A stretch of 64,000 bases of DNA from Microcoleus sp. EPA2 (GTDB lineage Bacteria; Cyanobacteriota; Cyanobacteriia; Cyanobacteriales; Microcoleaceae), in assembly GCA_020882975.1 (NCBI GenBank), contig JAHRFD010000003.1:255044-319043 (forward strand), written 5' to 3'. Position 1 is the stretch's first letter; the number at the start of each line of letters is the position of its first letter. The position numbers were made by a program, and so were the translations under genes. Below, piece by piece: positions 186 through 5,966 of this stretch. Under the pieces are notes generated by a model. The model did not search any database, had not been told where the DNA came from, and was given only the letters and a program-made list of their open reading frames with translations.

Positions 186-1778
186 TTAACTCAGCACCGG
201 TGGCAATCCCACCTCTTGCGGCCGCACAAATTTGCCACTAAAACTAATAGCTTTACCCTCAAAAGTTCTCGCTTGGGCAACTGCTTGCCGCAAATGAGCT
301 CGATCCATATCGTCCTTAATTCCCGCTACCAAATATACCATTAACTTCGCCGCTAAATCCTTCCCAGAAACCAACACTCGCTTTTTATTCGGATCGTACA
401 AAATCCCGTACCATGCAGACTCAGGATTGTCCATATGGCTGAATCCTTCATCCACATCATACCTGCGGAGTTTATCGAAAGTTGATTTCAGAGAAAGTTT
501 CTTTCTAAAAGTGAGAATTCCTAAAGCATTAGCTAAGGCAATTTGACCGACGGGACGAAACAAAATATTGCCCTCGCCCCCTGGCTTTTCAAAACTAAAT
601 CGGCGCAATTCTGCTGTTTCTTCGTCGCTTTCAATTCTTTGATAGCTGGGCAAAGTTGCTAAATGGTCGAACAGTTTCTTAAATTCTTCAATCCCCTCCT
701 TCAGTTCCTCATCTTCTGGCCGCATGGGAATTAAACCTTTTTTTTCCGGCTTCCAATGGGGGAATTTGTATTCTAAATACCGTTCCGACATATCTTGCAG
801 GGCTTGCAATGTGGTTAACACAGTTGATTTGGCTGCGACGGTGGCGCTGTCCCAATTGACGCGGGGGTTTCTGCTATCTTGTTCTTTTAATAACGGATGG
901 GTGACGGCAATTTTGCGGGCGCAGATTGCAAATCCATTGTCCTCATTTAATAAGGCTAATTGACCCTGACTCAGCGTCACCGCCATTAAATTAACGTGCA
1001 CGAAGATCGATCGCACTCGCCGTTGTGCTTGCTGTCGCGTTTCCCCAGCCACCACGGCGGGAATAAACTCAATGCCGATTTTTTCCTGGGCTAAATCGCA
1101 GACTTTTTCGGGGTCTAGTTGATATTCTTCGGCTAAATCTTCGAGGGTAATTGCAGCGCCGACTGGTTTTTTGTTTTTGTTATATCTTTGCAGGATTCCG
1201 GTTTTAATTAAAGTCATCAAACCTTGAACTCCCATCAACCGATGCTGGCCGTCTAAGGCAAAAATTGAAATTTTTTGAGAAACATTCAACAGCCCTAAAT
1301 TTTGGTTTTTATCAAAGGATACGAATTCCGCAGCCGATTTAGTTGCGACTTTATTTTTATCCCATTCATCAGCTAGAGGATTGTCTACCCACGGGGGACT
1401 GATTACTACTAAAACTGCGGGAAATTTGTGGGATTTGCGGGCGGCTAGATATTGAGTGAGGGCGGCTTGGCGGGACCAATCTAGGGGGCGCTGGATGATT
1501 TCATCGATGGTTTCGTCGTCGCGGAGGATGTTGTTAGTTTGGAGGTCGAATTTGTGGCGGAAAAGTGGCATTTGGGATGCGAAACGCACGCGGGAGTCTA
1601 ACCATTCTAGGCTGACTGAACCGATGTAGGCTTCGCTGTTTCCCATCTGGGTTTTTTGGACAAAAATGCGATCGTCTTTTCCTAGGTAATTATCTAATAA
1701 CAGTGCGATTTCTTGGCGATCGCTATTTTCTTTTTCTAATATCTTATTAGCGAGGTCATCCGCTGGGTTAGTGTTCAT
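186..1778 (-). CDS. DGQHR-domain protein, DndB-like
   Basis: This 530-residue protein carries the signature DGQHR at residues 176-180, preceded by hydrophobic strand SIFAL, which defines the DndB/DGQHR family tied to DNA phosphorothioation. Known DndB proteins repress dnd operons and bind DNA; some DGQHR proteins have no assigned activity. No membrane segment is visible, so it is probably cytoplasmic. The gene is divergent from a second, shorter DGQHR gene (dndB) with 194 bases between the starts, which suggests a shared control region. It is longer than a typical DndB (about 350-380 residues), with an extended N-terminus of about 60 residues and a longer C-terminal half, so it is a paralogue and not a copy of its neighbour. 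Family membership is clear; its exact role is not known. Confidence 0.8.
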   Translation of the reverse strand: MNTNPADDLANKILEKENSDRQEIALLLDNYLGKDDRIFVQKTQMGNSEAYIGSVSLEWLDSRVRFASQMPLFRHKFDLQTNNILRDDETIDEIIQRPLDWSRQAALTQYLAARKSHKFPAVLVVISPPWVDNPLADEWDKNKVATKSAAEFVSFDKNQNLGLLNVSQKISIFALDGQHRLMGVQGLMTLIKTGILQRYNKNKKPVGAAITLEDLAEEYQLDPEKVCDLAQEKIGIEFIPAVVAGETRQQAQRRVRSIFVHVNLMAVTLSQGQLALLNEDNGFAICARKIAVTHPLLKEQDSRNPRVNWDSATVAAKSTVLTTLQALQDMSERYLEYKFPHWKPEKKGLIPMRPEDEELKEGIEEFKKLFDHLATLPSYQRIESDEETAELRRFSFEKPGGEGNILFRPVGQIALANALGILTFRKKLSLKSTFDKLRRYDVDEGFSHMDNPESAWYGILYDPNKKRVLVSGKDLAAKLMVYLVAGIKDDMDRAHLRQAVAQARTFEGKAISFSGKFVRPQEVGLPPVLS

Positions 1779-1812
1779 CGGCGGTTTTTATATAAATATG
1801 GTATTTTTTCAA

Positions 1813-1841
1813 AAACTATCACGTTTAAATTTTTGTGTCAA
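1813..1841 (-). promoter_or_regulatory. possible promoter of the DGQHR gene
   Basis: On the minus strand TTGACA (1841-1836) is followed after 17 bases by TAGTTT (1818-1813), about 35 bases before the start codon at 1778. The -35 is consensus, the -10 is weak. The whole 1779-1972 gap between the divergent DGQHR genes is AT-rich and is the likely control region for both. Confidence 0.35.
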
Positions 1842-1972
1842 TGGTTGTTTTTAAAAAAATATTGTGAAATACTTAAATTATCTGGAGCGAGGGTCAGCAT
1901 ATATCACAAAAATAAATTAAAGTCAATAAGTATTAATTCTGAATTTTTCTGTCCGATACCCCATTCTAAATT

Positions 1973-3112
1973 ATGTCTACTCTTTCTTTTGAATACATTT
2001 TGCCGGTGATCCGGGGAATTCAAGGGGGCCGCGAATATTATGTTTCGATGTGCCCGGTGCGTTTTTTGCCGAAATTGTTCCCCTTTGAATCTGAAGATTT
2101 GCCGCCGGAAATGCGGGCTAGTCGTACCCTGAATCAAAGTCGGATTCCCGAAATAGCTGATTATTTGGTGAGGAATTCGACAAGTTATACTTGCGGGGCG
2201 ATCGCCGCTTCGATTGATGCGGATATTACGTTTGAAGCGGTGGGAAATGAGGGACAAGAACGGAAAATAGGCTGCTTGCGGGTGCCGATGGATGCTAAGT
2301 TTACGATTAATGATGGACAGCATCGCAGGGCGGCTTTTGAAATGGCTTTGCAGCAAAATCCGCAGTTGGGATATGAGACGGTGGCGCTGATTTTGTTTAT
2401 GGATATTGGATTGGAGAAGTCACAGGAAAGGTTTGCTGATTTGAATAGTTTTCAGGTGCCTTTGGAAGCGTCGCTGAGTTTGCTTTACAATCATCGGGAC
2501 GATCGCGCGCGGTTGGTGAAGGCGGTGGTGAAGCAGGTTGAAGTTTTCCGCTGTTTGACGGAGATGGAGAGGGGGATTTTGAATGGGCGATCGCCCAAAT
2601 TATTTACCCTGAGTGCGATCGATCGTGCTATCATGGCTTTGCTGTCTAATATTGAGGCCAGCCAACAGGCAAAACCCTCTCGTTACCGCGCCACAAAACA
2701 GGAAAAAGAGGCAGAGTTTGTTCAAAAAATACAACTAGCGGTTAGTTATTGGAATGCGGTTAGCAGTTTTATTCCCGATTGGCAGTTGGTTTTGCACAAG
2801 CAAGTTGCAGCGGGGGAAATACGGCGGGATTTTGTGCATTGTCGTAGTGTGGTGCTGGAGAGTTTGGGGGAAGTTGGCGCGAGTTTGCGATCGGTTTTTC
2901 CTGAGAGTTGGGAGGAACGTTTGGCCCTTTTGCGCGATGTTGATTGGTCGATTTCTAATCCTGATTGGGAAGGTGGGATTTTGTTGAGAGGGGGGATTTC
3001 TAAGTCGAGGGCTAGTGTGGGTTGGATGACTGATTATTTGAAAAATCGGTTGGGTTTGGGAACCGCTGAGGGATCACGGGCGGGACGCCCGTGCCACAAT
3101 CAAGGTGGATAG
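1973..3112 (+). CDS. dndB: DNA phosphorothioation protein DndB
   Basis: The 379-residue product has the family hallmark DGQHR at 114-118 (context TINDGQHRRAAF) and the usual DndB length. In characterised dnd loci DndB represses transcription of the modification operon. It is first in a plus-strand set followed by an HNH nuclease gene (164 bases later) and dndC, which fits an operon dndB-hnh-dndC. The last 20 or so residues (containing SRAGRPCHN) are encoded by a dispersed palindromic repeat at 3075-3093, so the natural C-terminus has probably been replaced or extended by the repeat. No strong Shine-Dalgarno is visible before the ATG. I am confident of the family; regulatory function is inferred from family knowledge. 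Confidence 0.85.
   Translation: MSTLSFEYILPVIRGIQGGREYYVSMCPVRFLPKLFPFESEDLPPEMRASRTLNQSRIPEIADYLVRNSTSYTCGAIAASIDADITFEAVGNEGQERKIGCLRVPMDAKFTINDGQHRRAAFEMALQQNPQLGYETVALILFMDIGLEKSQERFADLNSFQVPLEASLSLLYNHRDDRARLVKAVVKQVEVFRCLTEMERGILNGRSPKLFTLSAIDRAIMALLSNIEASQQAKPSRYRATKQEKEAEFVQKIQLAVSYWNAVSSFIPDWQLVLHKQVAAGEIRRDFVHCRSVVLESLGEVGASLRSVFPESWEERLALLRDVDWSISNPDWEGGILLRGGISKSRASVGWMTDYLKNRLGLGTAEGSRAGRPCHNQGG
3075..3093. repeat. dispersed palindrome at the dndB 3' end
   Basis: CACGGGCG (3075-3082) and CGCCCGTG (3086-3093) form an 8-bp perfect stem with a 3-base loop, followed by CCACAA. The same type of repeat, often written as SRAGRPCHN when translated, is widespread in cyanobacterial genomes. 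Here it is inside the reading frame of dndB. Confidence 0.7.
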
Positions 3113-3276
3113 TTATCTGATTATCTGGGGTTTAAATGGAAAAATTAAGTTGAGTTTGTTGATACCCACTGAGGTGTGAGGTTTTTGCTTCATGTTTGAG
3201 CAGTGCTGTTTTTAAATTTGTGTTAAAAATAGTGTAAGATGTCAGGTTTCATTGTATTTATTCAGAGGAGGAGGAA

Positions 3277-4245
3277 ATGACTACAGCACAGGAGTCAGTC
3301 AATAAAAATTTAGCTTATTATTGTAAATGTTTTGCCAACCTTAATGTGCACAGTACACGGGAACGGGGTGAGGCTCACTATAAGCCAATATTACTTTTGT
3401 CAATAATTGACCTAATCGCTCAAGGCATAATTAATGAAAATAAAATTTATGTGTCCGATAATTTGATTAAAACATTTAATAACTATTGGAATGTTTTAGG
3501 TTCGGAGTCTTACAAGGGTGGTTTGTATTATCCATTTATTCATCTGAGAAGAGACGGTTTTTGGCACATAACATACCAGCCCGCATTTGATGGGCCAAAA
3601 CCTAAAACAATAAACAAGTTAAGAGAAGCGGTAGAATATGCAAATCTGGATAGTGAATTATTTAATATACTGGCGGAACCAAATTCTAGAGCAGAATTAA
3701 TAGATACACTGGTAGCTGTCTGGTTTTCATCTAACAGGAAGGCTATCGAAGAAATTTTGGAAGTAAATCAAAATTTTATAAATGTTGCAGAGGAAGAAAG
3801 AGAAATATTAGAGGAAGCAGATGATTTAGACAGAGAACCTAGGTTCTATTTAAGAAAATCGGCTGTCAGAAATGCTTTTTTTAGGAAAGCAGTGGTGCAT
3901 ATATATGATTATAAATGTGCATTTTGCCGATTAAAAGTAAGAAGAACACTCAATCAAAACATTGTAGATGGCTCACATATTAAGCCATTTTCACAGTTTT
4001 ATGATAACCAAATTAATAACGGTATATCATTATGTAAAAATCATCATTGGGCTTTTGACCAGGGCTGGTTTGCGATAGATGATGATTACAAAATTATCGT
4101 AGCTAGTGACTTAGAAGAGGAATCTCCGAATGCTAAACCCATGAAAGATTTTCAGAGTGAAACTATTCTGTTGCCAACTTCTGAAAGATATCTACCAAGA
4201 CTTGAATCACTGCACTGGCATCGAGTGAATGTATTTAGAGCTTAA
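3277..4245 (+). CDS. HNH endonuclease with probable phosphorothioate-binding N-terminal domain
   Basis: This 322-residue protein has a C-terminal HNH nuclease: zinc ligands CAFC (214-217) and C253/H256, catalytic-type GSHIKP with H234, N248, and H257. The N-terminal part (about 10-135) shows HYKPILLLSIIDLI and YYPFIHLRRDGFWHI, resembling the HKP-LLL and YPF-L-DG-W pattern of the sulfur-binding domain (SBD) in ScoMcrA-type enzymes that cut phosphorothioated DNA. The ATG is preceded by AGGAGG (3266-3271), 5 bases away, a far stronger ribosome site than its neighbours have. The stop is 17 bases before dndC, so the two are almost certainly co-transcribed. HNH is seen directly; the SBD call is pattern-based. 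A nuclease reading phosphorothioates inside a phosphorothioation operon is unusual. Confidence 0.75.
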   Translation: MTTAQESVNKNLAYYCKCFANLNVHSTRERGEAHYKPILLLSIIDLIAQGIINENKIYVSDNLIKTFNNYWNVLGSESYKGGLYYPFIHLRRDGFWHITYQPAFDGPKPKTINKLREAVEYANLDSELFNILAEPNSRAELIDTLVAVWFSSNRKAIEEILEVNQNFINVAEEEREILEEADDLDREPRFYLRKSAVRNAFFRKAVVHIYDYKCAFCRLKVRRTLNQNIVDGSHIKPFSQFYDNQINNGISLCKNHHWAFDQGWFAIDDDYKIIVASDLEEESPNAKPMKDFQSETILLPTSERYLPRLESLHWHRVNVFRA

Positions 4246-4262
4246 TTAATAGAGGTAATAAA

Positions 4263-5966
4263 ATGACAGAAACACAGCAAATGCAACTATTTCCACCGCT
4301 CCCAAACCGCACCCTTCCTGAGTTAGTAAAAGATATAGAAAAGCTAACTAAAGAAATTCAATATATTTATTGCTCGGAAAATATACCTTTTGTTATTGGG
4401 TGGAGTGGAGGCAAAGATAGCACATCAGTTTTGCAACTTGTTTGGTATGCGATCGCAGCATTGCCACAAGAACAAAGAACAAAAAAAATATATGTAATTA
4501 CCACAGATACACTGGTAGAGAATCCAATAGTGTCTGCTTGGGTACGCAAGTCATTAGAGCAGATGAAGTCTGCTGCTAAAGCACAGCAGATTCCCATAGA
4601 ACCTCATTTGCTTTATCCAGATATCAAAGATACTTTCTGGGTTAACTTGATGGGAAAAGGCTACCCATCACCGAGACATGGATTTCGCTGGTGTACTGAA
4701 CGCCTGAAAATCCTTCCTTCTAATCGGTTTGTTCGTGATGTGGTGAGAATCAATGGAGAAGTGATTCTTATATTAGGTACTCGCAAAGCTGAAAGTATTA
4801 AACGTGCTGTTTCAATGGAGAAACATGAAATAGGTCCACTGAGTGACCGTCTCAACGATAATTCTAGTTCAATTAAATCTATGCTTTATCATAGTCCTAG
4901 TCTGCCTAACTCTCTAATTTATAGTCCTATTGAAGACTGGCGAACTGATGAAGTTTGGCTTTACTTGATGCAGTGGGAAAACCCTTGGGGCAACAACAAT
5001 AAAGATTTATTTAGTATGTATCGCGGTGCGACAGCAGACAATGAATGTCCTTTAGTTGTCGATACTTCCACTCCTAGCTGTGGCAGTTCTCGCTTTGGTT
5101 GCTGGGTTTGTACAATGGTAAATCAAGACAAATCTATGGAGGCAATGATTCAAAACGATCAAGAAAAAGAATGGATGCAGCCTCTGCTGGATATTCGCAA
5201 CGAATTAGATATAAAAGACGATCGCCCAAAAAGAGACTTCCGACGCATCTACGGTAGAGTAGAATTGTTTGAGCGCAACATGGGCGACGATACAACCTCC
5301 GTCGAACCCATCCCCGGCCCCTATACCAAATTCTGGCGGGAACACTGGCTCAGACGAGTCTTGGAAGCACAAACTCAAATACGCCAAACCGCACCTGTAG
5401 AAATGCGCGACATCACCCTAATTACCCCGGAAGAACTTAGTGAAATCCGCCGCATTTGGCTGGAAGAAAAACACGAATTCGATGACTCTTTACCCCGCAT
5501 TTACGAACAAGTCACGGGTCAACCCTTTGAAGACAGCCGCCCCGCCGCCGAAAGAAAACTCCTCGGTAGCGACGAATGGACTGTGCTCGAAGAAATGTGC
5601 GAGGACAAAATGCACCTGGAATTAATGGCAAAACTCCTAGATACAGAACGCCAATATTACACCAAATCCAGGCGTACTGGGATTTATGGCGATTTGGACA
5701 AATGCTTTGAAACCAGTTCGCGCTCTAAAGAAGAAGCCATTGGTAACGCTCACTATCAACGGAATCTGAAAAACGCTGTAGAAGCTGTCAAAGCAAATCC
5801 GACTCTCAATATTCAGCTAGTCAAAGATGCGATCGCCCAAAGCAATATTTCTGCCACAGAAGATACCGTTAATGTTGCCAAACTGAAAGAACAACTCGAA
5901 AGCACCACCAACCAAAGCAGGCAATTGTCTTGGGCTGATATCAAATTTTCACCCCCAAGTCCCTAA
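4263..5966 (+). CDS. dndC: DNA phosphorothioation sulfurtransferase DndC
   Basis: The 567-residue protein belongs to the PAPS-reductase/ATP-pyrophosphatase family. It has the pyrophosphate loop SGGKDS at 48-53 and four cysteines at 262, 273, 280 and 283 (ending CWVC) that match the [4Fe-4S] site of DndC. In the known pathway DndC adenylates the DNA backbone or carries sulfur delivered by a cysteine desulfurase, and acts with DndD and DndE. Neither partner follows: the next gene, 181 bases on, is ndhD. RBS AGAGG lies just before the ATG. The C-terminal third is less conserved and rich in charged helices. The family call is secure; whether it is active without DndD and DndE is open. Confidence 0.92.
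   Translation: MTETQQMQLFPPLPNRTLPELVKDIEKLTKEIQYIYCSENIPFVIGWSGGKDSTSVLQLVWYAIAALPQEQRTKKIYVITTDTLVENPIVSAWVRKSLEQMKSAAKAQQIPIEPHLLYPDIKDTFWVNLMGKGYPSPRHGFRWCTERLKILPSNRFVRDVVRINGEVILILGTRKAESIKRAVSMEKHEIGPLSDRLNDNSSSIKSMLYHSPSLPNSLIYSPIEDWRTDEVWLYLMQWENPWGNNNKDLFSMYRGATADNECPLVVDTSTPSCGSSRFGCWVCTMVNQDKSMEAMIQNDQEKEWMQPLLDIRNELDIKDDRPKRDFRRIYGRVELFERNMGDDTTSVEPIPGPYTKFWREHWLRRVLEAQTQIRQTAPVEMRDITLITPEELSEIRRIWLEEKHEFDDSLPRIYEQVTGQPFEDSRPAAERKLLGSDEWTVLEEMCEDKMHLELMAKLLDTERQYYTKSRRTGIYGDLDKCFETSSRSKEEAIGNAHYQRNLKNAVEAVKANPTLNIQLVKDAIAQSNISATEDTVNVAKLKEQLESTTNQSRQLSWADIKFSPPSP

Follow-up and report, generated by a model that had tools for sequence, protein, structure and literature searches.

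The stretch of DNA analysed here (the window) comprises 64,000 nucleotides of the cyanobacterium Microcoleus sp. EPA2 (contig JAHRFD010000003.1, positions 255,044 to 319,043), and its left end carries part of a DNA phosphorothioation (PT) system in which a gene for an HNH nuclease with an N-terminal sulfur-binding domain (SBD) lies between dndB and dndC. A first-pass annotation of the sequence had proposed three co-oriented genes and a divergent fourth, and we find all four where it placed them. On the forward strand, to which the coordinates of the features within these genes also refer, are dndB (1973..3112, 379 amino acids; TIGR03233 at 399 bits, cut-off 328), the SBD-HNH nuclease gene (3277..4245, 322 amino acids) and dndC (4263..5966, 567 amino acids; TIGR03183 at 693.5 bits, cut-off 290.4). 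The divergent gene, on the reverse strand, encodes a DGQHR-domain protein of 530 amino acids (186..1778; TIGR03187 at 177.8 bits against a cut-off of 58.85, Pfam DndB at 46.7 bits). Only 17 bases separate the nuclease stop codon from the dndC start, and the purine-rich run GAGGAGGAGG (3265..3274), read directly from the sequence, precedes the nuclease ATG and is likely its ribosome-binding site. We refer to the position of the nuclease gene, whose occupant is swapped among relatives, as the slot.

The nuclease N-terminus had been described as sulfur-binding-like, and comparison with the structures 8h0l, 7ccd and 5zmo identifies residues 10-160 (3304..3756) as a real SBD fold. The HNH domain occupies residues 197-322 (3865..4242) and matches Pfam HNH_2 at 44.8 bits (cut-off 21), while the score of the protein against NCBIfam NF045808 (PT-DNA-binding restriction endonuclease), 117.2 bits, is under the cut-off of 180. 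Scans of the protein with NCBIfam, Pfam and PADLOC found no DUF262 (ParB-like) NTPase/ATPase domain, and the DGQHR proteins of this genome are encoded by genes separate from that of the nuclease. Nine catalytic and zinc-binding HNH positions are kept in all 56 full-length homologs linked to dndC, in 4/4 linked homologs of low identity and in 14/14 unlinked full-length homologs; this invariance rules out a degraded nuclease for the full-length set, and some copies in our order-wide search are fragments or contain stops. One of the 56, from G081, lies on a contig other than that of its dndC and was counted as linked since both contigs end in the DGQHR gene. In the sulfur pocket, the window nuclease has Y35, K36 and P86 at the positions of H116, R/K117 and P165 (ScoMcrA numbering), retaining the basic residue and the proline with the histidine replaced. 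Among nucleases of at least 290 amino acids, to which the pocket counts refer, most linked homologs (45/56) have Tyr or Asn in place of this histidine.

The locus had been taken for a minimal three- or four-gene set without dndD and dndE. Locally this absence stands: a tblastn search of the left 20 kb with dnd and Pbe proteins returned nothing but the DGQHR gene itself. It fails for the genome (G000), in which contig C25 carries dndD (C25:19848-21836, 649 bits) and dndE (C25:19148-19459, 134 bits), each the sole over-cut-off match in a whole-genome search. DndC, DndD and DndE are therefore all present over cut-off, but not in one operon, with dndB and dndC on C23 and dndD and dndE on C25. Apart from the dnd genes, a third contig, C71 (L008 5953-11410), holds a Pbe-like module consisting of PbeA (530 bits; TIGR04095 at 653 bits; 463 amino acids covering positions 245-681 of the 682-position PADLOC model, with the N-terminal part missing), PbeC (1062 bits) and a 158-residue neighbour that is TIGR04062 dnd_assoc_4 (assoc4; 194 bits) and has no PADLOC match, which bears on the question of PbeB and PbeD. 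The three places are well inside their contigs (255 of 344 kb on C23, 20 of 58 kb on C25 and 90-95 of 205 kb on C71). A housekeeping IscS presumably serves as the cysteine desulfurase. In three genomes of the same genus (G001, G260 and G273), PbeA, PbeC, assoc4, the DGQHR gene, DndB, the HNH nuclease, DndC, DndD and DndE form one stretch, with the DGQHR gene between assoc4 and DndB and in the same divergent orientation as in the window; four others (G033, G166, G209 and G250) have the same island with another gene replacing that of the nuclease. The window locus would thus be one piece of a complete but dispersed system. That three or four genes form a novel defence system with a chemistry of another kind, working without DndD and DndE, is suggested by the local gene content of the window only, and we consider it very unlikely: the presence of dndD and dndE refutes it for the window genome, the relatives carry the whole set, and across the order, where the nuclease occurs in 80 and dndC in 228 of 291 genomes, the 80 carriers include, at the thresholds used, 75 with dndC, 73 with dndD, 74 with dndE and 69 with all three.

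Similar splits have been described. A study of toxic Microcoleus strains and their relatives, which made the comparison with toxic Microcystis, reported dndBC and dndDE on separate contigs and suggested that the split may impair function or allow a restriction enzyme to kill the cell (PMC8546630); as in the window genome, dndBC is apart from dndDE, and the available part of that paper does not mention the SBD-HNH gene. An older paper has dndC, dndD and dndE still clustered in Microcystis PCC 7806 (PMC2442094). The dndFGH cluster is reported to be absent in Nostocales (PMC8569181). The TIGR04095 helicase occurs in 245 of the 291 genomes, with open frames of 451-577 amino acids among the matches listed. 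It is therefore far commoner than the HNH gene (80/291), which cannot be a required partner of PbeA, and the idea that this gene is the partner explaining a nuclease-less PbeA was dropped. Finally, at the left edge of the window, two identical 44-nt direct repeats (1-44 and 84-127, 83 nt start to start) lie just left of the DGQHR gene; the end of dndB crosses a GC-rich stretch, GGGACGCCCGTGCCAC (3082-3097), that is single-copy in the window, and the last residues of DndB are, in a by-eye comparison, unlike those of relatives.

The gene set recurs in other cyanobacteria, for which the first-pass annotation had proposed a search. Across the order, 46 of the 80 carriers have the nuclease gene on the same strand as a dndC match and at most 300 nt upstream of it, and in 64 of the 80 the two are no more than 6 kb apart. 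These counts use 86 of 91 HNH places, five second fragments of broken genes being omitted; also set aside were a dndC in G176 that scored below the cut-off and surplus dndE rows in G207, G227 and G161. This linkage contrasts with a published survey in which fewer than 3.6% of SBD-HNH enzymes were near dnd clusters and little association was expected (PMC7461809). On the other hand, SBD-containing HNH proteins have been reported in Dnd loci of 698 taxa and proposed as restriction parts (Rakesh, Aravind and Krishnan 2024, PMC10853773), and the association itself was therefore already known. Two genomes that are almost complete, with two contigs each, have over 1 Mb between dndC and dndD (G236:C1 and G283:C1, both genes on the large contig); here the nuclease gene is beside dndC.

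The slot has two alternative occupants. The second is a third DGQHR protein of ~390 amino acids, here named DGQHR3, which is divergent from dndC, matches TIGR03187 at 62 bits and was searched by its own sequence; TIGR04172 as the slot alternative was abandoned, as its search matched nowhere, controls included. Among the 16 genomes of the genus, SBD-HNH is present in seven, DGQHR3 in nine and both in none (Fisher 8.7e-5). The slot position is directly visible in six of the seven nuclease genomes (the G219 contig stops at the nuclease) and in eight of the nine DGQHR3 genomes (no DndB was found in the G092 stretch). In the order, both genes are found in five of the 228 dndC genomes against 18.5 expected (p 2.6e-6), and in one of the five, G057, the DGQHR3 lies on another contig and is a relative at 43%. 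Given the linkage and slot-exclusivity counts, the arrangement is more than chance. DGQHR3 is present in 67 genomes, and in 38 of the 51 with coordinates compared it is divergent from dndC with a gap below 600 nt. In two HNH-less genomes of the genus a second gene, of 217 and 230 amino acids, stands beside DGQHR3 (L174 7758-8411 and L179 7495-8187), so there may be room in the slot for additional accessory genes.

Within the genus, the slot gene is exchanged together with the N-terminal half of DndC (DndC-N). DndC sequences from genomes of the same slot type have an identity of 0.838, against 0.783 for those of different type (permutation p 0.001), and the nearest neighbour shares the slot type in 15/15 cases; no such clustering is seen for PbeA, PbeC, assoc4, the DGQHR gene, DndB, DndD or DndE (10-14 genomes each). 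Identity by slot type along DndC places the contrast mainly in residues 1-240 (4263..4982 in the window), and it fades at 241-280. Residues 321-360 still differ, with an identity of 0.81 between the main nuclease group and the DGQHR3 genomes, 0.94-0.96 among nuclease genomes and 0.74 among DGQHR3 genomes. The nuclease genomes themselves comprise two subtypes (G000, G001, G109, G273 and G285 versus G219 and G260), whose DndC-N sequences diverge from each other as much as from those of DGQHR3 genomes. The genus data thus amount to one tract fading near DndC residues 240-280, as expected if recombination simply moved the 5' part of dndC along with the slot gene, in which case their matching would have no functional meaning. 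We regard such hitchhiking as improbable in view of the order-wide data, which separate the SBD from the rest of its own gene.

For these data, we used the 49 of the 56 linked nucleases with both DndE and DndC in the fetched stretches. SBD distance tracks DndC-N distance when the C-terminal half (DndC-C), DndE and the HNH domain are controlled for (r 0.273, p 0.0005), and does not track DndC-C (r -0.059). The result stands when the genus is removed, which leaves 42 genomes, and when the set is thinned to 37 or to 31. The clearest feature is a loop of the SBD beside the sulfur pocket, P86-W96 (3532..3564), which has the short form in the window and is at least two residues longer in 17 of the 49 genomes. 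Its length predicts DndC residue 155, which is S/G in all 17 long-loop genomes and another residue in all 32 short-loop genomes. The 20 DndC columns most informative on loop type all fall in residues 1-240, a region that accounts for 215 of the 467 scanned columns. Residue 155 carries 0.93 bits, the maximum possible, against 0.48 for the best HNH-domain column and 0.21 for the best DndE column; it was picked as the best of 467, and within-family label shuffles reach at most 0.54, with 0/500 matching the observed value. Both loop types occur in families f1, f8, f21, f32 and f33, and loop and residue agree in each. As a hold-out, we scanned a named genome collection and kept the best 80 of 262 relatives; removal of four without DndC and 26 near-copies (>=97%) of training proteins left 50 loci, many of them Nostoc relatives of one training type, and 48 of these agree (long with S/G 6/6, short with other residues 42/44; Fisher 1.8e-6). 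The far weaker match of the HNH domain, which lies between the SBD and DndC-N, the agreement within each mixed family and the held-out loci all speak against hitchhiking. As a separate observation, the nucleases of L085 (G256) and L088 (G035) have HNH domains close to those of same-family relatives (distance 0.20-0.26) and different SBDs (0.52-0.53), as if the SBDs had been swapped.

The covarying part of DndC contains the loop assigned to sequence specificity. In E. coli B7A this loop is GYPAPTRSFRW, and the three residues at its core correlate with GAAC, GGCC or GATC sites, an Arg-Xxx-Lys/Arg triplet being associated with GGCC and Thr-Arg-Ser with GAAC writers; the loop is predicted to enter the DNA major groove (2025, PMC12193691). 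By the same definition, the window DndC has GYPSPRHGFRW at residues 133-143 (4659..4691), and its triplet R-H-G (138-140) is an exact fit to none of the published patterns. SBD loop length goes with this triplet: R-x-R is present in 17/17 long-loop loci and 6/6 held out, whereas short-loop loci have many triplets, with R-x-R in 10/32 (Fisher 1.6e-6) and 3/44 held out. If the GGCC association carries over to cyanobacteria, the long-loop nucleases may belong with GGCC writers. The pocket pair also differs by loop, being NQ (8), NK (4), YQ (4) or YK (1) with long loops and YK (21), HK (8) or HQ (3) with short ones.

These observations bear on two other accounts. The same covariation would arise from protein contact, in which DndC-N binds the SBD and restrains the nuclease, as antidote or for recruitment, with no DNA site in common. 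This account would also fit the gene order in G236, G283 and the window genome, where dndC and dndD are genuinely separated and the nuclease gene has remained next to dndC. We judge this to be rather unlikely, as the covarying stretch surrounds the specificity loop predicted for the major groove (PMC12193691) and SBD loop length goes with the R-x-R triplet. The nuclease could also be a type IV defence that cuts foreign DNA phosphorothioated in another context, beside a writer of different specificity. The five reported SBD-HNH enzymes all recognise GpsAAC/GpsTTC, and differing specificities are among the explanations listed for the rare co-occurrences (PMC7461809); the window triplet is indeed unlike the Thr-Arg-Ser of GAAC writers. 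However, the type of the reader loop agrees with that of the writer in different families, and it is not obvious why a nuclease directed at foreign marks should track the DndC encoded next to it. The matching thus disfavours the nuclease "specific to foreign mark contexts" that the annotation had offered as an escape, and we hold a type IV role beside an unrelated writer to be doubtful.

Our preferred explanation, to which we assign a probability of roughly 0.6, is that the SBD-HNH gene and the N-terminal half of DndC constitute an exchangeable, matched reader-writer cassette, in which the nuclease reads the site of its own system and cuts unmarked DNA. DndC-N would set the marked site and the SBD would be tuned to the same site, or to DndC itself; the allele matching would in the former case reflect a shared DNA site, and the host DNA would be phosphorothioated. 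Co-expression of ScoMcrA with dndA-E kills the cell (PMC3009677), and the host mark must therefore keep a nuclease matched to its own writer in check, by blocking it, releasing it or gating it in another way. On this ground, and with DndI and SspE as precedents, we favour cleavage of unmarked DNA: the nuclease would most likely cut DNA whose sites lack the mark, and the host mark would prevent cutting or release the nuclease, following a DndI-like logic. The first-pass annotation had called a nuclease of this type in a modification operon contradictory unless one of three escapes applied, but the contradiction is not absolute, as SspE (PMC9646914) and DndI (PMC11662687) work with their own PT writers. 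More tentatively, and at clearly less than even odds, a type IV reader may have been turned into the restriction half of a PT restriction-modification system: the SBD would read its own writer's site without sulfur, the mark would block it, and SBD and DndC-N would be exchanged as a specificity cassette like the target-recognition domains of classical restriction-modification systems, while the slot may instead hold a DGQHR protein with another job and the same writer.

Several points weigh against the matched cassette. Neighbouring genes can share a history without sharing a function, and in the 14 genomes of the rest of the family both slot genes occur together in four against 4.3 expected, i.e. 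without exclusion. DGQHR3 genomes hold several DndC types, including the PSN type of short-loop nucleases (G092, G250, G264 and G140), and which gene fills the slot is therefore not fixed by the type of DndC. The basic pocket residue is retained in 40/56 linked and 13/14 unlinked homologs, and because the pocket is only partly kept, PT binding itself is not certain. The HNH domain behaves in reverse of the SBD, following DndC-C (a result that weakens to p 0.095 on thinning to 31 genomes), and weakly tracks DndC-N when the SBD is uncontrolled (r 0.137, p 0.014). The label-permutation p-values ignore phylogeny and are too small, the 49 genomes not being 49 independent events. DndE, also a proposed specificity determinant, gave no signal in the covariation tests, and coevolution of the SBD with it was dropped. 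The loop cut was set after a wider definition, with 19 long-loop genomes, had included two (G057 and G074) without S/G. Mixed loop types occur in five families only, and the hold-out has two exceptions, L242 (short loop, PTDSF) and L262 (loop missing in the matched segment).

Compared with known systems, the window nuclease shares its N-terminal SBD fold and C-terminal HNH domain with CxxC with the SBD-HNH and SBD-SRA-HNH endonucleases EcoWI, SprMcrA, Mae9806I and ScoMcrA, but is encoded inside a dnd operon next to the writer, and its linked homologs have mostly replaced the pocket histidine. DndI works with IscS-DndBCDE, senses its own PT, spares marked DNA and restricts PT-deficient phage DNA (PMC11662687). 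The window nuclease would resemble it in working with DndBCDE, in sensing the PT of its own system and in sparing marked DNA; DndI, however, has DUF262 ATPase and DUF1524 HNH domains, whereas the window nuclease has an SBD and, in family scans, no ATPase domain. SspE, with SspABCD, is likewise a PT-sensing nuclease linked to its own writer, but uses an N-terminal GTPase domain with a hydrophobic patch as sensor and responds to a CpsCA mark on one strand (PMC9646914). The Dnd-linked wHTH(=SBD)+SAD+HNH proteins of PMC10853773 likewise combine HNH and SBD in Dnd neighbourhoods as a proposed restriction part; those have three domains and lie primarily downstream of the modification genes, whereas the window nuclease has two and lies between dndB and dndC, and the available part of that paper mentions neither slot exchange nor matching with DndC. 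Our literature search, with most subscription papers and all preprints outside its scope, likewise returned no description of slot exchange or of DndC-SBD matching. As far as such searches show, three features are new: a slot with exchangeable occupants, the exchange of that slot jointly with DndC-N, and the reader-writer allele matching. Overall, we regard the system as a variant of PT-based defences already described.

The findings address a published open question, namely why PT-dependent nucleases sometimes adjoin PT writers (PMC7461809): the matching of reader and writer argues that the nuclease belongs to its writer. They also qualify a published claim that Cyanobacteria lack PT restriction systems (PMC8569181). 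Finally, the matched alleles of writer and reader that occur in nature could reveal the residues that set the phosphorothioation site.

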